From Sporomusaceae bacterium (GTDB lineage: Bacteria > Bacillota > Negativicutes > UBA1444): 55,365 bases of DNA. The notes under the pieces are model-generated. The model was not told the DNA's origin and did not search any database. It saw only the letters and a program-made list of their open reading frames with translations. A program made the position numbers and the translations under genes. Positions 43,061-55,365 of this stretch are shown here, one piece after another; the stretch's first letter is position 1, and the number at the start of each line of letters is the position of its first letter. The DNA is taken from NCBI GenBank assembly GCA_018434355.1, contig JAHDPL010000028.1:1-55365 (forward strand). The letters run 5' to 3'.

Positions 43061-43957
43061 ATGTCCAAACTCGTAGAATGCGTACCAAATTTTAGCGAAG
43101 GCCGTCGCCCGGAAGTCATCGAGGCGATTGCCGAAGCAGTCCGCCAAGTTGCCAATGTCAAACTGCTGGATGTGAAAGCCGATCCCAGCCATAATCGGGT
43201 GGTGGTGACGTTCGTCGGCGAACCGCAGGCAGTGAAGCAAGCCGCCTTTAACTGCTGCAAAAAAGCGGCTGAACTCATCGATATGGAAAAACATCATGGC
43301 GAACATCCCCGCATCGGCGCCACCGATGTCATCCCGTTCATTCCGGTCAAAAACGTCAGTATGGAAGAATGCGTGCAACTGGCCGATGAATTGGCTCAGG
43401 AAATCGCCACAAAACTGAACATCCCCGTCTACCTGTACGAAGAGGCAGCAAAGATTCCCGGTCGCAAAGCCTTGCCGGACATCCGCAAAGGTCAATATGA
43501 AGGGCTGAAAACCGAAATCAGCAAACCGGAGCGCCGCCCGGACTATGGCCCGGCCCAGCTGCATCCTACTGCCGGCGCAACCGTCGTCGGCGCACGACAA
43601 TTCCTGATCGCCTACAACATCAACCTTGATACCAGCGACGTCAATATCGCGAAAAAGATAGCCAACAGTATTCGCGAAGCAAAAGGCGGCTACAAATATG
43701 TACGGGCGATGGGCATTTCGGTTCGATTGGGCGACCGTGACATCGCCCAGGTCACGATCAACATGGTAAACTATCAAGGAACGCCTTTGTTCCGGGTGTT
43801 TGAAACAGTAAAATCGGAGGCGGCCCGTTACGGCGTCAATGTGCTGGGCAGTGAAATCATCGGACTGACCCCGATGCAGGCCTTGCTCAACGCCGCCGAG
43901 TTTTATCTGCGACTGGACGGCTTCGACCGCAAACAGGTATTGGAGGATAATCTATGA
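43061..43957 (+). CDS. ftcD: Glutamate formimidoyltransferase
   Basis: The 298-residue single-domain form moves the formimino group from N-formimino-L-glutamate to tetrahydrofolate. It starts KLVECVPNFSEGR and has the catalytic His82 in HHGEHPRIGATDVIPF. IRKGQYEGL and RPDYGP are typical of the family. GGAGG precedes the ATG at 43061. Its stop overlaps the start of fchA as ATGA, so formimino-THF is passed to a coupled enzyme. This is the last step but one of the histidine route that yields one-carbon folates. Confidence 0.94.
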   Translation: MSKLVECVPNFSEGRRPEVIEAIAEAVRQVANVKLLDVKADPSHNRVVVTFVGEPQAVKQAAFNCCKKAAELIDMEKHHGEHPRIGATDVIPFIPVKNVSMEECVQLADELAQEIATKLNIPVYLYEEAAKIPGRKALPDIRKGQYEGLKTEISKPERRPDYGPAQLHPTAGATVVGARQFLIAYNINLDTSDVNIAKKIANSIREAKGGYKYVRAMGISVRLGDRDIAQVTINMVNYQGTPLFRVFETVKSEAARYGVNVLGSEIIGLTPMQALLNAAEFYLRLDGFDRKQVLEDNL

Positions 43958-44583
43958 TGCTGATGAAAAAAACCGTTCGTTCGTTTGTCACTGAACTCGC
44001 TTCCGACTCTCCTGCTCCCGGCGGCGGAAGCGCAGCCGCTCTTGCCGGTTGTCTCGGCGCTGCCCTGACCAAGATGGTTTGCAGTCTATCGCTCGACGAA
44101 GAGAAATTCAAGCAGGTATTGCCGGAAATTCATGAAATTCAGGCGCAAACCAGCGCACTACTGGAAAAACTGATGCTGGCAGTCGATGAAGACGCCCAGG
44201 CGTTCAATGAAGTAATGAATGCCTACAAGTTGCCGAAAGCCGACGAAACGGAAAAAGCAATCCGGCTGGAAACAATCCAGCAAGCAATGAAAAAAGCCGC
44301 TTTGTTGCCGTTAGGAGTCGCCGGTGATTGTCTGGAGGCGCTGAAATTGGCGCACCGCATCCTGCCGATTGGCAACGCAAATGCCGCCAGCGATGCGGCA
44401 GTCGCTGGCCTGATGGCCTATGCGGCGATTCATGGAGCACTATTCAATGTTAAAATCAATCTTGGCTTTATCAAGGATGCCGAGTTTTGCACGGAAACCC
44501 GGGAACTAATCAGCGAGATCACCAGCGAGGCAAAAAAAGAAAACGCCGCTATGGAAGCGGCGGTGACGAAGATTTTTCCTTAA
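43954..44583 (+). CDS. fchA: Formiminotetrahydrofolate cyclodeaminase
   Basis: The 209-residue helical protein converts 5-formimino-THF to 5,10-methenyl-THF and ammonia. Recognisable motifs are SDSPAPGGGSAAALAGCLGAAL near the N-terminus and LPIGNANAASDAAVAGLMAYAA, with the Asp residues of the family. GGAGG lies seven bases before the first ATG at 43954; a second ATG follows directly. It is coupled to ftcD. In acetogens the product enters the Wood-Ljungdahl folate pool. Confidence 0.93.
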   Translation: MMLMKKTVRSFVTELASDSPAPGGGSAAALAGCLGAALTKMVCSLSLDEEKFKQVLPEIHEIQAQTSALLEKLMLAVDEDAQAFNEVMNAYKLPKADETEKAIRLETIQQAMKKAALLPLGVAGDCLEALKLAHRILPIGNANAASDAAVAGLMAYAAIHGALFNVKINLGFIKDAEFCTETRELISEITSEAKKENAAMEAAVTKIFP

Positions 44584-44657: not shown

Positions 44658-47600
44658 TTATCCTGATTGTTGCGCCAACCATGCACTTAGTTTTGCCGCC
44701 GGCAACGGTCGACTGATCAAGTACCCCTGGATCATATCACAACGGCGTTCGGCCAAAACCTGCAATTGCGACTCGCTTTCCACGCCTTCGGCGACGACTT
44801 GCAAGCCAAGTTCATGCGCCAGATCGATCATGGTTCCTAAAATCGCCGTACTGCCGGATTCGGCGGTTGCATCATCGATAAAGGACTTGTCGATTTTTAC
44901 CACTTGAATCGGCAATCGCTTCAGATAAGTCAGCGATGAATAACCAGTACCAAAATCATCGAGCGCCACCCGGACGCCCAAATCCCGCAATTCTTGCAGC
45001 TTACGCGTACTCAGGGCAAACGATTCGACCAACGAAGTTTCCGTAATCTCCAATTCCAAGGCGCTAGGCGTCAGGCCGCTTTCGCGCAGTGCGTCGCGAA
45101 CTTGTTCGACAAAATCATCCCGAGTCAATTGGCGAGTCGAGATGTTCACGGAAACGAATAAATCGGGATAACCGGTCTGTCGGAGCGTTGCGCCAAACAT
45201 ACAAGCCGAACGCAATACCCAGTCGCCGATTGCCACGATCTGGCCGGTCTCCTCGGCAAGCGGAATGAAGTCGGCCGGTGACACCATGCCAAGTTCAGGG
45301 TTGCGCCAACGCAGCAACGCTTCCATCCCCAGTGCTTGCGTCCCGGAGCTATCGACGATCGGTTGGTAATGCAGGGAAAATTCTTCATTTTTCAAGGCAA
45401 ACCGCAGATGGTTTTCCATGCGGATTTTCGTCAGAGCTGCTTCGTGCATTGCAGTGTCATAATATTTCCAGGCATTTTTGCCGGCTCGCTTGACCGCGTG
45501 CATCGCCGTATCGGCGCAACGCAGCAAATCTCCAGCGACCAACCCGTTTTCCGGATAGCGTGAGATCCCGATGCTAGCCGAAAGCAAAAATTTATGTCCG
45601 CATTCTTCAAACGGTTTCGTGAAAATAGTGAGAATCATTTCGGCAAAGCTTTCTGCCTGCAACTCATTCTTGAGCAACACGACAAATTCGTCGCCACCCA
45701 AGCGGGCCAGCAGATTGGCGCCGCTAATCACCGCCGACAGACGCCGGGCCACTTCGCGCAGCAGATCATCGCCGCAGGAATGGCCAAACGAGTCATTAAT
45801 GTTCTTAAAGTTGTCAATGTTCACGAAGAGCACACAACCGCTTCGCGGCGTAGTCGCTTCGTCCTTCAGCTGATCCTGCAATTCTTCGAGAAAGCGGGTT
45901 CGGTTAGCCAGGCCGGTCAGAGCATCGCTGTAAGCCAGTTGGCGGATCTTGTTTTCACGCAGCTTCATCTCCGTCACATCTGTCAGGGATCCTAGAATTC
46001 GCACCGGTTGTTGCTGGGCATCCAACAGCGCCTTGCCGCGGCTGAGCACCCAAAAATAGCTTCCCTGCTTCGTTTTTAGTCGATATTCCACCGTATAATA
46101 CTCGGCCCGGCCCGAAAGATGCTCCTCCAGCGCCTTGAAACGGAGCTCGCGGTCTGCTGGATGCACCACTTCGTTGAAATTGGCGATGGTAATTCCTTCA
46201 CTGCCAAATGAAAACCCGAGTCGCTGCTCCCAGCGGTCAGACCATTCGACTTTACCTGTGCGCAAATCCCAGTCGTAGATCACGTCGTTGACGGCATCAA
46301 GAGCCAGGCGGAACCGTTCTTCGCTAATCGCAAGACTATGCTGGCTTTGTTCAAGTTCCGCGACTTTTTGCCGCAGCGCGGATTCCGAGACCGACAACTT
46401 CGAATATAGTAGCGACAGTTCTTCATTATGAGCCTGCAACTGCTCGTGCTGTTCCTGCAACCGGCGATGCGCTTCTTCCAGCGCCCGGGTCGTCGCTCTT
46501 TTTTCTGTCAAATCACGGACAATGATCATCACTTCGTCTTTGTTCATCGGAATGATCCGGCTCTCGCGAAACGCGATTTCGCCATTGATCAGCAAATCAT
46601 ATTCAATCGTTTGCATCGTTTGCTGCGTCAGGGCCGTTTCGATCAATTGCATAAACCGGTCGGCCAGTTCGGTCGGAATTGATTGGTAAATACTCTGGCC
46701 GGTCCGCATCGAATGAAGGTTGAATACTTCGGTCCCCTGTGGAATATATATTTCCCGGTAAACCCCTTCGCGGCTGAGCCGCACGATCATATCCGGCGTC
46801 GCCTGCAACAGGGCTTTGGACTTGGCTTCACTGGACATCAGTTCTTCACCCTGAGCGATCAGTTCTTCGTTTTGCGCTGTCAGTTGCTCGTAGGCCGCCT
46901 GAAGTTCGAGGTTCTGGTCGGAGATGGTCAGTGTCGCTGCGGCAATTTTTCTGCGTAGCCAATGAATGAACAACAACGCCGCTAACGCCAGTACGCCTGC
47001 CAATACGAGAACTGCCACGGTGTAATTGATTAGTTGTTGGCGTGACAGGCCCCAAAAGGTCGCAGTTTCGCCAAACCATTTATCTTTGATGCGTTGCAGT
47101 TCGCCGCTGGCTTCCAGCCGGGCCAGCGCGTTGTCCAGTCGGGCCATCAGTTCCGGATCGTCGGCGCGGACCGCTATCGCGAACGGATTGACAAACAAAC
47201 TTTCGCCATTGGTTTTGACCAGTTTTTCCAAGTCGGCCCGCCGTAGCCAGTACTTGCCGGCATAGTAATTGGCGGCCGCCGCATCGATTTTTCGTTCCGC
47301 CACCGCTTGCAGCAACTCGCGCTGACTATCATATTCATAATAGTTCAATCCCGGCCGCTGTTGTCTGAGCAACTGCCCGGCAACCTCGCCCTTCTGAATA
47401 CCAACCCGCCGGTCGCGCAAATCATCTAACCCAACGATATGATAACTGTCCTGGGCGACAAATAGAACCACCCGGTCCTCAAAATAAGGCCGGGTGAACA
47501 AAAATTCACGTTTGCGCTCTGCCGTCACATTCATGCCGGGAATGATTTCTACCTGGCGATTGCGCAATTTCTCGACTGCATCGGCCCAGCTTCCCAGTTG

Positions 47601-47825
47601 CCACTCCACCTGCAAGCCGGTTTCCCGCTCCAGGGCCCGGATCAGGTCGGCTTCCATCCCGTCGGCTTTACCATCTTCACGCAGCATAATCTGCGGTGGA
47701 TAGGCGGCATCGTCAGCGGCGCGGATTACCCGAGGCGCAGCCACGACCAAAGACTCTGCAAACACCAGCAGAGCCACCGCAACGCCAACGATTTTCAGCA
47801 AACGCAAACCGGTTTGTTGCAACAT
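44658..47825 (-). CDS. Periplasmic-sensor PAS-PAS-GGDEF-EAL protein
   Basis: The 1055-residue c-di-GMP protein starts with a signal segment (about 8-30). A solute-binding domain of the SBP_bac_3 type (about 32-265) is followed by a membrane segment (about 270-292), a coiled coil, PAS domains (about 340-455 and 495-620) joined by a second coiled coil, GGDEF (about 630-790) and EAL (about 800-1050). The GGDEF motif (ARLGGDEFVVLL) is intact. The EAL domain keeps MEALLRWRNP, LDDFGTGYSSL and EGVESESQ. Both synthesis and hydrolysis are thus possible. The solute-binding domain belongs to the amino-acid-binding family, so it may sense an amino acid. It lies between the ftcD-fchA and liv-hutI operons. 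Confidence 0.92.
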   Translation of the reverse strand: MLQQTGLRLLKIVGVAVALLVFAESLVVAAPRVIRAADDAAYPPQIMLREDGKADGMEADLIRALERETGLQVEWQLGSWADAVEKLRNRQVEIIPGMNVTAERKREFLFTRPYFEDRVVLFVAQDSYHIVGLDDLRDRRVGIQKGEVAGQLLRQQRPGLNYYEYDSQRELLQAVAERKIDAAAANYYAGKYWLRRADLEKLVKTNGESLFVNPFAIAVRADDPELMARLDNALARLEASGELQRIKDKWFGETATFWGLSRQQLINYTVAVLVLAGVLALAALLFIHWLRRKIAAATLTISDQNLELQAAYEQLTAQNEELIAQGEELMSSEAKSKALLQATPDMIVRLSREGVYREIYIPQGTEVFNLHSMRTGQSIYQSIPTELADRFMQLIETALTQQTMQTIEYDLLINGEIAFRESRIIPMNKDEVMIIVRDLTEKRATTRALEEAHRRLQEQHEQLQAHNEELSLLYSKLSVSESALRQKVAELEQSQHSLAISEERFRLALDAVNDVIYDWDLRTGKVEWSDRWEQRLGFSFGSEGITIANFNEVVHPADRELRFKALEEHLSGRAEYYTVEYRLKTKQGSYFWVLSRGKALLDAQQQPVRILGSLTDVTEMKLRENKIRQLAYSDALTGLANRTRFLEELQDQLKDEATTPRSGCVLFVNIDNFKNINDSFGHSCGDDLLREVARRLSAVISGANLLARLGGDEFVVLLKNELQAESFAEMILTIFTKPFEECGHKFLLSASIGISRYPENGLVAGDLLRCADTAMHAVKRAGKNAWKYYDTAMHEAALTKIRMENHLRFALKNEEFSLHYQPIVDSSGTQALGMEALLRWRNPELGMVSPADFIPLAEETGQIVAIGDWVLRSACMFGATLRQTGYPDLFVSVNISTRQLTRDDFVEQVRDALRESGLTPSALELEITETSLVESFALSTRKLQELRDLGVRVALDDFGTGYSSLTYLKRLPIQVVKIDKSFIDDATAESGSTAILGTMIDLAHELGLQVVAEGVESESQLQVLAERRCDMIQGYLISRPLPAAKLSAWLAQQSG

Positions 47826-48455: not shown

Positions 48456-48535
48456 AGGTGACACCTCCTTGTTATTAATAATAAAAATTCTCCATATCAT
48501 CTTGAATTCCTGCTTACAAGTTAGAAATCAATGGA

Positions 48536-48561
48536 AAGGCCGGGCAAAATCGCCCGGCCTT
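48536..48561 (-). terminator. Hairpin after the ydbC-like gene, no U-run
   Basis: A perfect ten-pair stem (AAGGCCGGGC with GCCCGGCCTT) and a six-base loop lie five bases after the gene. No long U-tract follows, so it may be a weak terminator or a 3' end stabiliser for the liv-hutI transcript. Confidence 0.5.
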
Positions 48562-48566
48562 GACTG

Positions 48567-48818
48567 CTATGCATGCGCCGCTGAAAACAATGCCTCGGGA
48601 TCGTCGATCAACTCCCGCAGCAAAGCCGCTTCTTCGGCGCTAAAAGTAACGCCTTTCGACATTTTGACATGCTGTTCATCCCATTCGCGGATGTCCAGTT
48701 TGGCTGGTCGGTCATTCCAGCTGACCAGGTTCACCTCCTTCTTCCAGCCCTTTGTTCCCTCCGCCAGTACGCCGATATGGCGCAGGATCGAGAATCGGAA
48801 CTCCTTGTTTTCTTCCAT
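48567..48818 (-). CDS. PC4/YdbC-like ssDNA-binding protein
   Basis: The 83-residue protein matches YdbC, a bacterial PC4-like single-strand binder: FRFSILRHIGVLAEGTKGWKKEVNLVSWNDRPAKLDIREWDEQHVKM, then KGVTFSAEEAALLRELI. PC4 proteins bind single-stranded DNA or RNA as dimers. The ATG at 48818 gives the family length, with AAGGGA about ten bases upstream. An ATG at 48890 adds 24 residues unlike the family. It lies 76 bases after hutI and is probably co-transcribed with it. A small hairpin (GCGGTG-TAC-CACCGC) lies in the gap. Confidence 0.8.
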   Translation of the reverse strand: MEENKEFRFSILRHIGVLAEGTKGWKKEVNLVSWNDRPAKLDIREWDEQHVKMSKGVTFSAEEAALLRELIDDPEALFSAAHA

Positions 48819-48894
48819 GGTGGTCGCTTCCCTTCTTCGCGGTGGTACACCGCATATATACGCCGCCGTTGGCGACGCAGGATCCATCATCAGG

Positions 48895-50154
48895 CTACCG
48901 CCTTTGCCGCTCGTATACGATTTCGCCGCGTTTCACCACTGTAGCGACGCAATTGACTCCGGCATGATACGGCAAATACAAATGGGATGGGTGATCCAAC
49001 AGGACAAAGTCGCCCTGTTTGCCGCGTTCCAGGCTACCGATCCGGTTGGCTCTACCCACCGCCGCCGCCGCGTTGATCGTCAGCGCGGTCACGATCTCCG
49101 CCGGCGTCATCTGCATGTAGAGCGCCGCCAACGCAATTACGAGAGGAATCGATTCGCTGAAGCAGCTGCCGGGATTAAAGTCGGTTGCCAGCGCAACCGG
49201 CACGCCGCTGTCGATCATGAACCGGGCCCGCGCATAAGGCTCGCGCAGACAGAACGCGGTCGCAGGCAATAAAACGGCAATCACGCCGGTTTCTGCCATA
49301 CGCCGGATTCCTGCATCGGAGGCGTGCAACAGATGTTCGGCCGACAGTGCGCCGAGTTCCGCCGCCAGTTCAGCGCCGCCCAGGGTAACGATCTCATCGG
49401 CATGAACTTTGGCCTGCAGTCCGAGCGACTGGGCCGCCGTCAGCAAACGCCGTGACTGCTCCACCGAAAAAACGCCTTTTTCACAGAACACATCGCAGAA
49501 CTCGGCCAAACGTTGTTCCGCCACCAGCGGCAACACATCCTGCAGCAAATAATCGACAAACTCATCAGTCCGGCCTTTATACTCGGCAGGAACGGCATGC
49601 GCCCCCATGAACGTGCGCACGACCTCGACAGGATGTTGCCGGTCCAGTTCCGCCATCACGGCCAGTTGTTTCAGTTCGGTCGCCGCATCCAGGCCGTAAC
49701 CGCTTTTGCCTTCGACCGTAGTCACGCCGAAACTGAGCATCGAGTCAAGCCGCCGCAGTCCAATCGCCAGCAATTCATCGGCGGAAGCCTGCCGGGTGGC
49801 GCGGACGCTGTTGATGATGCCGCCGCCCCGCTCCATGATGTCCATGTAAGTATCGCCGCGCAGCCGCCAGGAGAATTCTTCGGCCCGGTGTCCGGCAAAT
49901 AGGAAATGGGTGTGCGGATCGACAAACCCGGGCAGAACGCAGCGGCCTGTCGCGTCAATCACCGTATCGGGCGTCGCAGCGATGCCAGACAAAACTTCGT
50001 CCGTCGCCCCCACCTTGCGGATAATTCCATCCTCCAGCCACAATGCGCCATCTTCAATAATCCCGATGTCCTGCATCGCCGGTCCGCATTTCGGGGCATG
50101 GCCACGACAGGTCACCAGCTCGGACGCATTTTTAAGCAATAAGGTCTTTGCCAT
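48895..50154 (-). CDS. hutI: Imidazolonepropionase
   Basis: The 419-residue amidohydrolase opens imidazolone-5-propionate to N-formimino-L-glutamate, the substrate of FtcD in the same window. Metal ligands are visible in DPHTHFLFAG, LQAKVHADE and LATDFNPGSC. Other marks are GGGIINSVRATRQAS and GKSGYGLD. The ATG is two bases after the livF stop, with GGGGGATAG just upstream. HutH and HutU are not in the window. Placement as the last enzyme gene of an amino-acid transporter operon hints at imported histidine or a related compound. Confidence 0.94.
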   Translation of the reverse strand: MAKTLLLKNASELVTCRGHAPKCGPAMQDIGIIEDGALWLEDGIIRKVGATDEVLSGIAATPDTVIDATGRCVLPGFVDPHTHFLFAGHRAEEFSWRLRGDTYMDIMERGGGIINSVRATRQASADELLAIGLRRLDSMLSFGVTTVEGKSGYGLDAATELKQLAVMAELDRQHPVEVVRTFMGAHAVPAEYKGRTDEFVDYLLQDVLPLVAEQRLAEFCDVFCEKGVFSVEQSRRLLTAAQSLGLQAKVHADEIVTLGGAELAAELGALSAEHLLHASDAGIRRMAETGVIAVLLPATAFCLREPYARARFMIDSGVPVALATDFNPGSCFSESIPLVIALAALYMQMTPAEIVTALTINAAAAVGRANRIGSLERGKQGDFVLLDHPSHLYLPYHAGVNCVATVVKRGEIVYERQRR

Positions 50155-50156
50155 CG

Positions 50157-50861
50157 CTATCCCCCCAGATACGCCCGGCGTACCGCGTCATCGTCCCGTA
50201 GCCTGGTCGCCTCACCCTCAAGCACGATATGGCCGGTTTCCAAAACATAACCGCGATGGGAAACTCCAAGCGCCTTGCGGGCGTTCTGTTCCACCAACAG
50301 GATGGTCGTGCCCGCCTCGCTCAGCTGCTTTAGCACTTCAAAGCAGCGGTTGACCAGGATCGGCATCAATCCCATCGATATCTCATCCACCAACAGCAGT
50401 TCCGGCTCCAGCATCAAAGCCCGGCCGATCGCCAGCATCTGCTGCTCGCCGCCGGACATGGTCCGCGCCGCCTGGTTCATCCGTTCTCCCAACCGGGGAA
50501 AAATCGCTACCACTTTTTCCACCCGTCGCGGCAAATCCTGCGGCGGTTCGACCCAGCCGCCGATACGTAGATTTTCGGCAACCGTCAGTTCACCGAACAC
50601 CCGGCGTCCCTCCGGCACATAAGCGATCTTCATGCCGGCCCGTTGCCACGGTTCCAGCCGGCTGATCTCGTTTCCCTTAAACAGCAGTTTGCCTGAGGAT
50701 ACAGGCACCAGTCCCATGATCACCTTCATCAAGGTGCTTTTGCCGGCGCCGTTGGCGCCGATGATACTGACGAATTCCCCGGCTTTGACATCGATTGAAA
50801 TGTCGTACAGAACCTGTGAATGCCCGTAATGGGCGTTTAGGTTGCGAATCTCCAGCATCAT
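50157..50861 (-). CDS. livF: Branched-chain-type amino acid ABC transporter ATPase LivF
   Basis: The protein of about 234 residues is the ATPase of the HAAT family. Motifs are GANGAGKSTLMKVI (Walker A), MSGGEQQMLAIGRALM (signature) and LLLVDEISMGL (Walker B, Asp-Glu). It starts MMLEIRNLNAHYG. The first ATG (50861) overlaps the livG stop as ATGA; a second ATG is directly after. GGAGGG is just upstream. It is the second ATPase in the cassette. Confidence 0.93.
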   Translation of the reverse strand: MMLEIRNLNAHYGHSQVLYDISIDVKAGEFVSIIGANGAGKSTLMKVIMGLVPVSSGKLLFKGNEISRLEPWQRAGMKIAYVPEGRRVFGELTVAENLRIGGWVEPPQDLPRRVEKVVAIFPRLGERMNQAARTMSGGEQQMLAIGRALMLEPELLLVDEISMGLMPILVNRCFEVLKQLSEAGTTILLVEQNARKALGVSHRGYVLETGHIVLEGEATRLRDDDAVRRAYLGG

Positions 50862-51625
50862 TCGCCCTCCTCGGCTTCGCCCAGATAGGCGTCGATGACC
50901 GCCTGGTTGTTTTGCACTTGCTGCGGCGTTCCTTCGGCGATTTTCACCCCGTAGGACAGTACCGTCATCCGGTCGCACAAGGCAGTGGCCACCGCCATGT
51001 TATGCTCGACCAGCATGATTGTCGTACCGCTAGCGCGCAGTTTATGCACCAGCTCGATAAAGTCCAGCGTCGCATCCTTGGAAAGGCCGGCGCAGGGTTC
51101 GTCCAGCATCAGCAACACCGGCTCCAGCGCCAATGCCCGGGCGATCTCCAGCCGCCGCATATAGCCGAGACTAAGGTCGCCGGCTTTAACCTTGGCGAAT
51201 GCCGCGATATCGACCCGTTCCAGATAGGCCTGAACGTGTTCCAGATTCTGTCGGGTATGACTGCGCCGCAGGCTGGATAACAGAGTCGGGGCTTGCTTGA
51301 GGGCAAACGCGGCCAGCAGATTGTCCTGCACCGTCATGTCCTTGAACACTTTCGTGATCTGAAACGTGCGGGCAATCCCTTTGCGTGCCACGGCATGCGC
51401 CGGCAACCCTTGGATTTCTTCCCCCTTTAACCGGATCGTCCCTTCGGTCGGCGTATAAAAACCGCATACCATGTTGAAAAAAGTCGTCTTGCCGGCGCCA
51501 TTCGGACCGATCAGTCCCAGCGTCTCGCCTCGCTTCAGCGTCAGGTCGACGCCATCGACCGCCTTCAGGCCACCAAAATGCTTTTTCAAGCCGCGAACTT
51601 CCAGCAGAACTTCCGAATCAACCAA
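50858..51625 (-). CDS. livG: Branched-chain-type amino acid ABC transporter ATPase LivG
   Basis: The protein of about 255 residues carries GPNGAGKTTFFNMVCG, LSLGYMRRLEIARAL (an LSxGxxR signature form common in LivG) and LLMLDEPCAGL. The start is a TTG at 51625, with GGGGGG eight bases upstream. An ATG at 51694 would overlap livM by 68 bases and add a stretch unlike the family. It is tightly coupled to livM and livF. Confidence 0.93.
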   Translation of the reverse strand: MVDSEVLLEVRGLKKHFGGLKAVDGVDLTLKRGETLGLIGPNGAGKTTFFNMVCGFYTPTEGTIRLKGEEIQGLPAHAVARKGIARTFQITKVFKDMTVQDNLLAAFALKQAPTLLSSLRRSHTRQNLEHVQAYLERVDIAAFAKVKAGDLSLGYMRRLEIARALALEPVLLMLDEPCAGLSKDATLDFIELVHKLRASGTTIMLVEHNMAVATALCDRMTVLSYGVKIAEGTPQQVQNNQAVIDAYLGEAEEGE

Positions 51626-51626
51626 G

Positions 51627-52508
51627 CTACTCGCCCCCCTTGCCGCGACTGAAAAGCCCGATCCATTTTCGTCGCAAAAAGCTGTCGTCGCCAATCAGCC
51701 CCTGTGGTTGGAACCGCATCATCAGCACCAGCAGCCCACCGTATACCAGCATACGGTAATCGGAAACAAAACGGAACACTTCCGGCGAAAGGGTCAGAAT
51801 AACTGCTCCGAGCAGCGGCCCGCTGACCGTTCCCAAGCCGCCCAGCACCGCCATTGACAACACGCCGACCGAAACAGGAAACGCAAAGTCGCTCGAAGAG
51901 ATGAAACCCATGAAGTGGGCATATACGCTGCCGGTCATGCCGGCGATGAAAGTGCCGATACCAAAGGCAAACACTTTGTAATGATCGGGGTTCACGCCCA
52001 GCGATGCCGCCGCATCTTCCTCGTTGCGCACTCCGCCAAGCGCCAGTCCCAGCCAGGAAGTCGGCAAATGCCGTATAAACAGATAAACCAAGATATTCAG
52101 GATGACCAGCAGAATCAGGATCTCGGTATTGCCGAACCGCAAACCGAAAAGCACCGGTTTCGGCACAGCCAATCCCAAAGATGCGCCGAACAGCTCTACG
52201 TATTGAAATATCGCCACCACGACAAAGTTGATGCCGATCGTAGTGACAGCCAGAAAATCTTCGCGCACCCGCACGCTGAACAAACCCAGCAACACCCCGA
52301 CAACCGCCGCCACCAACCCGGCTGCCGGCAGCGCCAGCAAGAACGGCCAGCCGGCCTTGGCAGTAAGCAAAGCCGAAGTATAAGCGCCAATCCCGTAAAA
52401 GGCCGCATGGCCCAGGGTCGGCTGTCCGGCGAAGCCGGTGATTATGTTGAGACTCATGGCCAGCAGCATGGCCAGCCCGATATTGATCGCAACGACCTGT
52501 TCGTACAT
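51627..52508 (-). CDS. livM: Branched-chain-type amino acid ABC transporter permease LivM
   Basis: The 293-residue permease has about eight membrane segments. GFAGQPTLGHAAFYGIGAY and LGLALGGVRNEEDAAASLGVNPDHYKV (the coupling-helix EAA-like region) are typical of LivM. GGGGGCGCC lies upstream of the ATG. It lies ten bases after livH. Confidence 0.93.
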   Translation of the reverse strand: MYEQVVAINIGLAMLLAMSLNIITGFAGQPTLGHAAFYGIGAYTSALLTAKAGWPFLLALPAAGLVAAVVGVLLGLFSVRVREDFLAVTTIGINFVVVAIFQYVELFGASLGLAVPKPVLFGLRFGNTEILILLVILNILVYLFIRHLPTSWLGLALGGVRNEEDAAASLGVNPDHYKVFAFGIGTFIAGMTGSVYAHFMGFISSSDFAFPVSVGVLSMAVLGGLGTVSGPLLGAVILTLSPEVFRFVSDYRMLVYGGLLVLMMRFQPQGLIGDDSFLRRKWIGLFSRGKGGE

Positions 52509-52518
52509 AGGCGCCCCC

Positions 52519-53391
52519 TTATGAACTGCGGCGTCGGCCGAGTAGTCCCTGTGGCCGCCAGAGCAGGATCAGAATCAATACAACGAACGCAATCGCATCG
52601 CGAGGCAGGAAAAAGCCGACGTAGCCGCCGATCAGCGTCTCCGCCATGCCAATAACCAATGCCGCCAACACGGTGCCCAGCGGATTGCCCAGCCCTCCCA
52701 GCACGATCACCGCCAGCATCTTATATGCCGGTACATCGCCCATCGTCGGATAGACCGAGTTATAGAGGATGCCAACCAAGATTCCGGCGACTGCGGCGAA
52801 ACCGTAGCCAAGAATAAAGTTGAAGGCGACCACCCGGTTGGTATTGATCCCCATCGCTTTGGCTGTCTCCAAGTCCTGCGCCGTGGCCCGCCAGGCCAGC
52901 CCGATCGGAGAGCGGTTCAGGAGCAACCACAGGATCAGCAGCAAAAGGGCCGTTGCCGCCAGAATCAAAAACCAGGTCCCGTATAGCGTCAGTTGCAGCG
53001 ACGGGAACTGAATCGAGGGCAACAACGTGCCGAAATTGAGTTCTCTGGCCTGCGGACCGGCTACCAGCCGCAGAAAGTCCTGCAGGAAGATAAACAGGCC
53101 GATGCCGGCAATCAGCGATACATTGGGAGATTTGTTCATCAGCGGCGCATAAAGGAATTTTTGCACCAGAAAGCCAAACACCGCCGTCAACGCCACACCG
53201 GTCACCAATGCCACCAAAGGGCTACCGGTCTGCAGCAGGAAGAAAAAGGCCACATAGGCGCCGATCGCATAAGCGCCGGCATTGGAAATATCGAGAATCC
53301 GCATGATCCCGTAGACAAGGGTGGCGCCCATCGCCGTCAGGGCATAGACGCTGCCGACTACGATGCCGTTGATAATCTGCTGAACAAGCAT
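52519..53391 (-). CDS. livH: Branched-chain-type amino acid ABC transporter permease LivH
   Basis: The 290-residue permease has about eight membrane segments. GIVVGSVYALTAMGATLVYGIMRILDISNAGAYAIGAY is the classic LivH opening, and WRATAQDLETAKAMGINTNRV is the ATPase-contact loop. GGAGG precedes the ATG. A large hairpin separates it from livK. Confidence 0.94.
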   Translation of the reverse strand: MLVQQIINGIVVGSVYALTAMGATLVYGIMRILDISNAGAYAIGAYVAFFFLLQTGSPLVALVTGVALTAVFGFLVQKFLYAPLMNKSPNVSLIAGIGLFIFLQDFLRLVAGPQARELNFGTLLPSIQFPSLQLTLYGTWFLILAATALLLLILWLLLNRSPIGLAWRATAQDLETAKAMGINTNRVVAFNFILGYGFAAVAGILVGILYNSVYPTMGDVPAYKMLAVIVLGGLGNPLGTVLAALVIGMAETLIGGYVGFFLPRDAIAFVVLILILLWRPQGLLGRRRSS

Positions 53392-53412
53392 GCATTTCCT
53401 CCTGTCGCCAAG

Positions 53413-53465
53413 GCAAAAAGAATACGGAAGGACCGGACGCGCTCGAACGCGCCCGGCGCCTTCCG
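53413..53465 (-). terminator. Intercistronic hairpin between livK and livH
   Basis: CGGAAGG (53425-53431) pairs with CCTTCCG (53459-53465), with inner helices CCGG/CCGG-like and CGCG/CGCG. In minus-strand RNA a run UUCUUUUUG follows. It can partly stop transcription or protect the livK mRNA, so that more binding protein than permease is made. Confidence 0.7.
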
Positions 53466-53481
53466 CGCATGGAACCAGGTC

Positions 53482-54678
53482 TTATTTGTCAGGAGGCGTG
53501 ATGATTTCGGCGTCGGTGATTTCGCCATAGTAAGCGAATGCGCCGTTCTTGACGATCTGGACCTGGACATTCTTGGTCACTTCGCCCAGCTTGTTATAGC
53601 CTTTGATGATGCCGGTCGCCGCTTCAAAATCTTTTATCTTGTAAATGCCGTCCTTGATTTTTTCCGGCTCGGCGCCATTTTTGCGCATCGCTTCCGCCAG
53701 CACCATGAAGCAGTCGTACGTGGATGCCGCTACCATGTCCGGTGCATGCTTGGCCATTTCACTGTAGTCTTTGATGAATTCCTGCGTCGCTTTCAACTTC
53801 GATTCACGGTTCAGGTTGGTCGTGATGACGATGCCGTCCGCCGTCGCGCCAGCCACTTTCAGGAATTCCATCGTCGAGTCGATCCCTTCGGTGCCGAGCA
53901 TCTGGATGCCGAGGTTCAGTTCTTTGGCCTGCCGGGCGATCTGCGCGCCGGTGCCGGAATAGGTCGGCATATAGATCAGGTCCGGTTTCAGTTGTTTGAT
54001 TTTCGTCAGCACCGGATTGAATTCTTTTTCCACCATCGTGAACTTATCGCGCGAAACCACCTTGCCGCCTTTGGATTCGAAGTACTTGGTGAACGAATCG
54101 GCCAGGGTGGTGCCGAAATCATTGTCAACGTTCAGAATCGCAACGGTTTTCGCTTTTAACATGTTCACTGCAACAAATGCGCCGGCTTTGCCCTGGGCCG
54201 TACCGACGAACGATTGCCGGAACACATAGTCGCCGCCCTTAGTTATGTCGGGATGCAACGCATAGGCTGCGATCATCGGGATTTTTGCATTTTCAAAGAT
54301 CGGCGCCGCCGCCCGGGTGGTATGACTATAAGAACCGGATACCGCCGCCACCACGCCGTCCTTGGTGGTCAGCTTCTGAGCAATGCTTACCGCTTCCTGC
54401 GGTTTCAGGTTGTCATCATACGCAACCAGTTCGACCTGCCGCCCATTGATGCCGCCGGTCTTATTGATTTTTTCCACCGCCAGTTTGGCCGCCTTGGTGA
54501 CGCTATCGCCATCCGCCGCCGCCGGCCCGGTAACCGGAGCAAAAAAGCCTATTTTTATCGGGGTCTTGTTTTCGGCAGCCGGCTTCTTGTCGCCACCGCC
54601 TCCGCCGCCGCAACCGGCCAGCATTAAACCGAGCGAAAGAATGAGGATCAGCAATGACAGGGAAAATCGACTCTTCAT
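53482..54678 (-). CDS. livK: Amino acid-binding lipoprotein LivK-like
   Basis: The 398-residue periplasmic-binding protein has a lipobox (LAGC, Cys23) and a Gly-rich linker. The fold has IKIGFFAPVTGPAAADGDSVTKAAKLAVE, PIFENAKIPMIAAYALHP and YMPTYSGTGAQIARQAKEL, typical of the LivJ/LivK family that binds branched-chain amino acids, amides, urea or other solutes. AGGAGG precedes the ATG. It is the first gene of the transporter operon; no clear -35/-10 pair is seen in the 98 bases upstream. Confidence 0.93.
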   Translation of the reverse strand: MKSRFSLSLLILILSLGLMLAGCGGGGGGDKKPAAENKTPIKIGFFAPVTGPAAADGDSVTKAAKLAVEKINKTGGINGRQVELVAYDDNLKPQEAVSIAQKLTTKDGVVAAVSGSYSHTTRAAAPIFENAKIPMIAAYALHPDITKGGDYVFRQSFVGTAQGKAGAFVAVNMLKAKTVAILNVDNDFGTTLADSFTKYFESKGGKVVSRDKFTMVEKEFNPVLTKIKQLKPDLIYMPTYSGTGAQIARQAKELNLGIQMLGTEGIDSTMEFLKVAGATADGIVITTNLNRESKLKATQEFIKDYSEMAKHAPDMVAASTYDCFMVLAEAMRKNGAEPEKIKDGIYKIKDFEAATGIIKGYNKLGEVTKNVQVQIVKNGAFAYYGEITDAEIITPPDK

Positions 54679-54776: not shown

Positions 54777-55365
54777 CTACACCACCTGGCTGATATGAAG
54801 GGCCTTGAACTTGCCGCTCGCATTAGCCGCCTTGTTCAACTGGATCAGGCAACCCGGGCAGCCGGTCACCACGATGTCGGCTCCGGTGGCTTCGATGTTC
54901 TGCCGCTTCTTTTCAATCACCCGGTCGGAAATCTCAGGATAGTCGAGGAAGAAAGATCCTGCCCCACCGCAACAGACATCGGCGTCTTTCATCTCGCAGA
55001 AATCACCGGTCGCTGAGAGTAGCGCCCGCGGCTCCTTGGTAATCCCCTGCCCCCGCACCAGATGGCAGGGGTCATGGTAAGTGATTTTCGCTTTGTTTTG
55101 CGTCCGTGGTACGTAGCCTGCCTTCGCCAGATATTCGGTCAAATCCATCACTTTGGCGCTGAACGCCTGCGCCCGTTCTCGCCACTCGGCATCCTGTTCA
55201 AAGTAATGGGCCAGATGTTTCAGTGTGCCGCTGCAACTGGCGCAGTCGCTGACCACGATATCGACATCTTCGAACTGGCGGATGTTCTCCTTGGCCAGTT
55301 TGAAGAAGTCGCCTTCCATCGCATGGGCCAGATGCGGCAGGCCGCAACAGACGTTGTCCCGCGTC
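54777..55365 (-). CDS. glcF: GlcF-like iron-sulfur protein, C-terminal part (cut by window edge)
   Basis: The frame runs through the right edge, and about 195 residues are visible. There are two CCG domains: the first ends in VCCGLPHLAHAMEGD at the edge, and the second has DPCHLVRGQG and CCGGAGSFFLDYPEIS, with VTGCPGC near the C-terminus. Such domains occur in GlcF/LldF and heterodisulfide reductase-like subunits that pass electrons from glycolate, lactate or related 2-hydroxy acids. The ATG at 55319 is internal, not a start. The gene points toward livK but is separated from it by 98 bases. Confidence 0.85.
   Translation of the reverse strand, partial: TRDNVCCGLPHLAHAMEGDFFKLAKENIRQFEDVDIVVSDCASCSGTLKHLAHYFEQDAEWRERAQAFSAKVMDLTEYLAKAGYVPRTQNKAKITYHDPCHLVRGQGITKEPRALLSATGDFCEMKDADVCCGGAGSFFLDYPEISDRVIEKKRQNIEATGADIVVTGCPGCLIQLNKAANASGKFKALHISQVV

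Follow-up and report, generated by a model that had tools for sequence, protein, structure and literature searches.

A livKHMGF-hutI gene block of a Sporomusaceae bacterium and its hut-linked clade of HAAT transporters: probable import of histidine-pathway imidazole compounds, most likely urocanate

The closest described relatives of the transporter reported here are the LIV-I/LS systems of Escherichia coli (LivJ/LivK with LivHMGF), HAAT transporters which have the same five-part architecture and the same binding-protein fold. That fold is also shared by the HAAT binding proteins of Rhodopseudomonas palustris with coumarate and hydroxybenzoate as ligands (4eyo, 4f8j and 4evq), to which our LivK aligns with Z of about 41-46 and with 21-22% identity in the VIA alignment. 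These proteins demonstrate that HAAT binders may accept aryl acrylates, compounds which urocanate resembles; we know of no hut context for them.

Transporters encoded inside hut loci have been described as well. Pseudomonas hut loci encode HutTu (for urocanate), HutTh and HutXWV (PMC8871633), and HisXYZ has been predicted as a histidine ABC transporter of the HutC regulons in Comamonadaceae, Ralstonia and Rhizobiales (PMC5343134). The latter prediction is based on hut co-regulation, and its taxa overlap with the betaproteobacterial members of the clade presented below; compared by description, HisXYZ is named as three components, whereas the system studied here has five genes. Likened in the same way, the Pseudomonas transporters resemble ours in that uptake of histidine or urocanate is encoded within the hut locus, the HutT proteins presumably being single-protein permeases and HutXWV an ABC transporter of a different type. 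Both the HAAT type and the presence of transporters in hut loci are already known, but we found no description in the open-access literature of a HAAT system located in hut loci or dedicated to the histidine pathway. What seems to be new is a conserved hut-linked clade with a pocket that, judging by the alignments, is remodelled, and which family models would call branched-chain amino acid transport.

The DNA analysed (the window) is a complete contig of 55365 bases. Seven of its genes, from livK to a ydbC-like gene, form one tight block on the minus strand, running from 54678 to 48567. The features of the locus are as follows:

53482..54678, minus strand: livK, substrate-binding lipoprotein belonging to the hut-linked HAAT clade (Peripla_BP_6, 219.6 bits)
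52519..53391, minus strand: livH, permease (BPD_transp_2, 139 bits)
51627..52508, minus strand: livM, permease (BPD_transp_2, 128 bits)
50858..51625, minus strand: livG, ATPase with TTG start (ABC_tran and BCA_ABC_TP_C tail; Walker and signature motifs)
50157..50861, minus strand: livF, ATPase (ABC_tran; Walker and signature motifs)
48895..50154, minus strand: hutI, imidazolonepropionase (TIGR01224, 483 bits)
48567..48818, minus strand: ydbC-like PC4-domain gene, probable passenger (PC4, 41.7 bits)
48536..48561, minus strand: terminator-like hairpin 3' of ydbC (10-bp inverted repeat)
43061..43957, plus strand: ftcD, glutamate formimidoyltransferase, convergent to the block (TIGR02024, 445 bits, above the cut-off)
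43954..44583, plus strand: fchA-like cyclodeaminase/cyclohydrolase gene (FTCD_C, 215 bits)

The arrangement given in the original prediction, i.e. livKHMGF followed after 2 bp by hutI and then by a ydbC-like gene, was confirmed. The other distances are equally short: 90 bp (livK-livH), 10 bp (livH-livM), 1 bp (livM-livG), a 4-bp overlap (livG-livF) and 76 bp (hutI-ydbC). The starts of LivG and LivF needed trimming (to TTG 51625 and ATG 50861, respectively), and ATG 48818, not 48890, is the most likely start of YdbC. The hairpin after ydbC folds with -23.4 kcal/mol over 48525-48575 (z -4.3), and we infer that livKHMGF-hutI-ydbC is a single transcript. A promoter scan revealed no minus-strand site 5' of livK, and the hits were no more frequent than in shuffled sequences. 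Only one gene, cut by the contig end, is visible upstream of livK; this partial sequence (54777-55364) resembles the C-terminal part of the LdhH model (quinone-dependent L-lactate dehydrogenase large subunit), with a score under the cut-off.

The original prediction also placed FtcD and FchA close to the block. They are indeed nearby, but they are convergent to it and other genes lie between, which makes them neighbours and not members of the operon. The fchA-like gene scored 187 bits against NF045657, below the cut-off of 275. Located between this gene and the hutI block is a 1055-aa protein (44658-47825) of the binding-domain/PAS/GGDEF/EAL signalling type, its domains having been judged by eye; the matching interval in a congener (G001) is only about 1.6-2 kb long.

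Histidine breakdown ends in glutamate, ammonia and a tetrahydrofolate-bound one-carbon unit. We interpret the block as, in all probability, a transporter-plus-enzyme operon for imported imidazole compounds of this pathway, with urocanate (imidazole acrylate) as the most likely cargo. The LivK-type lipoprotein would capture this compound, and LivH, LivM, LivG and LivF would move it, in the predicted inward direction, at the expense of ATP. HutU, encoded elsewhere in the genome, would then hydrate urocanate to imidazolone propionate, HutI from the same block would open the ring to give formiminoglutamate, and FtcD together with the FchA-like enzyme would pass the formimino carbon to tetrahydrofolate (for the first steps of the pathway see PMC8871633).

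HutI exceeds the cut-off of the curated hutI model TIGR01224 (483 bits versus 298) and is the sole match in the genome to do so, its closest solved structure is the imidazolonepropionase 2bb0, aligned along the length of HutI, and the metal-site motifs HTH, HADE and TDFNPG are all retained. The hut genes of this genome are dispersed, since hutU and hutH are located on contigs other than that of hutI. On contig C46 (L065:5535-11064), hutH lies beside genes for pyroglutamyl-peptidase I, an arylsulfotransferase-like protein and a DASS-type anion symporter, and an amino acid permease gene next to it was not found.

The transporter has the composition of a HAAT system: the genes for one binding protein, two permeases and two ABC-type ATPases lie side by side, and all five products exceed the Pfam gathering scores. 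The AF2 model of LivK is confident (pLDDT 92.8) and displays the two-lobed LIV-type fold, matching 3td9 with Z 48.2 over 347 residues. Unlike the E. coli systems, the window system lies under all E. coli-type equivalog cut-offs (score/cut-off: LivK 161/477, LivH 150/379, LivM 181/366, LivG 260/362, LivF 259/441), although these are tuned to enterobacterial sequences and failing them alone tells little about the substrate. As the assignment is made at the Pfam level and the scores are under these cut-offs, livKHMGF is used here as the name of an architecture and not of a substrate. The proteins do not qualify as a urea (Urt) transporter either: LivK scores 74 versus the UrtA cut-off of 493, and the rest are likewise below the UrtA-E cut-offs.

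A search of the GTDB species genomes, based on an alignment of LivK, yielded 79 ortholog loci, with LivK proteins 40-89% identical, in Firmicutes, Methylomirabilota, Proteobacteria, archaea and others. The clade is present, among others, in Desulfovirgula, Desulfofundulus, Desulfotomaculum copahuensis, Symbiobacterium, Methylomirabilota, Pusillimonas, Ottowia, Polaromonas and Desulfurococcales archaea. At 52 of the 79 loci hutU, hutI or hutH was found within 10 kb, usually adjoining (12/15 loci with LivK identity of at least 55%, 19/32 at 45-55% and 21/32 at 40-45%). Many of the non-linked loci are short contigs; where the flanks were adequate (at least 5 kb upstream and at least 7 kb downstream), a hut gene was present at 32 of 41 loci and none was seen at the remaining nine. 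As a control, 20 LivK paralog loci with similar flanks were taken from hut-positive genomes, and no hut gene was found near any of them (32/41 versus 0/20, Fisher 1.6e-9, uncorrected for relatedness among genomes). Hut-linked loci occur in all major parts of the LivK clade tree, and the lineages in which this transporter accompanies hut genes are not related to each other. In a sample of 398 genomes of the phylum, hutI over the cut-off was present in all 12 clade-bearing genomes (our own included) versus 125/398 overall (Fisher 6e-7, relatedness again uncorrected, with one family giving 3 of the 12). Chance adjacency of the Liv block and hut genes was rejected on the grounds of the paralog control and of recurrence in many families.

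Gene order in relatives was compared at two levels. Within the class, LivK has one same-genus ortholog (90% identity) and four in other genera (63-66%), while the remaining homologs are at most 37% identical among the matches listed. Across the phylum, an ortholog at 45-65% identity was found in 11 of 397 further genomes. The order livKHMGF-hutI-ydbC is kept in the congener, and livKHMGF-hutI was found again in other families; this recurrence indicates that the order is not due to chance. The variants observed are livKHMGF-hutI-fchA-ftcD (G058, in which ftcD and fchA, unlike in the window, do sit inside the operon), hutU-ftcD-hutI-livKHMGF (G309), livKHMGF-hutI-ftcD (G485) and livKHMGF-hutI-hutU (G589). 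In the compared loci ydbC lies beside hutI only in the congener, and no link to the system was seen outside the genus. We rejected it as a system component on account of this lack of conservation; it looks like a genus-specific passenger.

The original prediction was staked in part on hutI staying with the transporter in relatives. A hutI placed elsewhere does occur, mostly in genomes without this LivK clade: in most sister genomes hutI lies beside hutU and the clade is missing. Two genomes are exceptions: Sporomusa malonica (G312) and G318 carry the clade, but their hutI is at another place. In one related locus (L071) an amino acid permease gene adjoins hutH, and a similar gene, judged by reading the sequence, is found in another (L073). 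It would seem from this that transporter modules are exchanged in hut loci: some sisters have the permease gene next to hutH, and here a HAAT system adjoins hutU or hutI.

The position of hutI as immediate neighbour of the transporter also needs to be qualified, as it is true locally, but family-wide the nearest hut gene is usually hutU. The median distance from the Liv block to the nearest hut gene is 124 bp. This distance is within 1 kb at 49 loci, and the gene concerned is hutU at 38 of them, hutH at 7 and hutI at 4.

For the ligand pocket, the LivJ contacts listed in PMC6983066 served as the reference. In the tree, 76 members of the family are split from 26 paralogs and three solved binders with SH-aLRT 99. 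The Tyr18/Trp18 position is Asp in all 76 clade members and Phe or Tyr in 24 of the 26 paralogs. Leu77-Cys78 is replaced by Ser-Tyr in 76/76 and Ala100/Gly100 by Tyr in 75/76, the remaining one being unread. At the position of Thr102 nearly all members of the clade have Val, Ile or Leu, whereas 25/26 paralogs have Thr or Ser; the Tyr150 position is Phe in 73 clade members. The combination of an aromatic residue at 18 and Thr at 102, typical of the LIV-I pocket, is absent from the clade. The clade retains the counterparts of Ser79 and Tyr202, and Glu264 (= Glu226 of LBP) is invariant, so that these three are shared with the E. coli system. Two further features were not relied upon: D314-M315-V316 is invariant in the clade but lies inside the pattern used to collect the loci and was not counted, and Arg291, which all clade members and no paralogs have, was given little weight because an Arg of E. 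coli LBP falls at this alignment position, next to a gap. By sequence, the hut-linked LivK clade has a pocket remodelled in comparison with leucine-type binders.

These data bear on the possibility that the transporter of the block is an ordinary one, for branched-chain or a broad range of amino acids, with hutI behind it by chance or through shared nitrogen regulation. LIV-type transporters are often broad in substrate, and the solved structures nearest to the LivK model are leucine-type binders, followed by binders of benzoates and coumarate-like acids. However, we consider such an explanation improbable in view of the hut linkage recurring across phyla and absent from the controls, the co-occurrence of the clade with hutI, the Asp found in every clade member in place of the aromatic pocket residue, and the eight further LivK homologs held by the window's genome. 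The cargo is very probably a compound of the histidine pathway. In this respect the original prediction, which proposed histidine, urocanate or imidazolone compounds, is strongly supported by the conserved order across phyla, the co-occurrence with hutI and the remodelled pocket.

Regarding urocanate in particular, we put the chances at about even. It is favoured since hutU or hutI, and not hutH, is the usual neighbour (42/49 loci), and since HAAT binders of the same fold take aryl acrylates. The alternative is that L-histidine is imported and then deaminated by HutH, encoded elsewhere in the genome, the linkage to hutU/hutI reflecting only the shared pathway. Among 14 further clade-bearing genomes, all encode hutU and hutI and 12 encode hutH; hutH is the nearest hut gene at 7/49 loci, and LivK keeps counterparts of Ser79, Tyr202 and Glu226, residues with which LIV proteins bind amino acids. 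For these reasons histidine stays under consideration, but as a rather less likely cargo, given that no more than 14 of the 52 hut-linked loci have hutH within reach and the Thr102 contact has been lost clade-wide. Also favouring urocanate is the 98%-complete draft assembly of G589, which contains the operon, hutU and hutI, and in which no histidase-family gene was found. In a second genome (G457), a short histidase-like fragment lies near a contig start, hence hutH may be missing from the assembly. HutH-free genomes were therefore rejected as decisive proof of urocanate, as only G589 stands.

A third candidate cargo is a modified imidazole, e.g. a methylated or sulfur-bearing urocanate, which would be the substrate of a second urocanase-like paralog (HutU2). 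Several thermophilic Firmicutes have such a HutU-type paralog between livF and an AraC-type regulator. It nevertheless fails to reach the cut-offs of the models for thiourocanate hydratase and S-methyl thiourocanate hydratase, and a second paralog of this kind is missing from the window's genome, which makes a modified imidazole an unlikely cargo in our opinion. The HutU2 genes score about 795-848 bits against TIGR01228 and adjoin the Liv block and the regulator gene in L111:4885-6537, L112:5355-7016 and L113:5140-6837; they are also present in L122, L125, L129, L132, L136 and L176.

The AraC-type regulator carries a GGDEF-like domain and is encoded just upstream of or within many Liv-hut operons (L063:4072-5370, L108:5439-6743, L109:6921-8186, L110:11194-12471 and L111-L113). 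It may be a dedicated regulator of these operons; none is visible within the window. A truncated hutU, comprising the C-terminal 240 model residues, was observed directly 3' of livF in L110 (G645 C1:218571-219290), in a genome with a full hut cluster elsewhere, and appears to be what is left of an earlier Liv-hutU operon.

Returning to urocanate as the preferred cargo, we tentatively propose, at slightly less than even confidence, that LivK represents a widespread unnamed HAAT clade of bacteria and archaea, dedicated to urocanate, annotated as branched-chain amino acid transport and carrying the pocket signature Asp56, Tyr117 and Tyr139. Should urocanate or histidine prove to be imported by the clade, the substrate call would improve for dozens of bacterial and archaeal genomes, and the pocket signature would provide a simple rule separating the clade from leucine-type systems. 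Anaerobes and thermophiles would, moreover, gain a route to external imidazole compounds.
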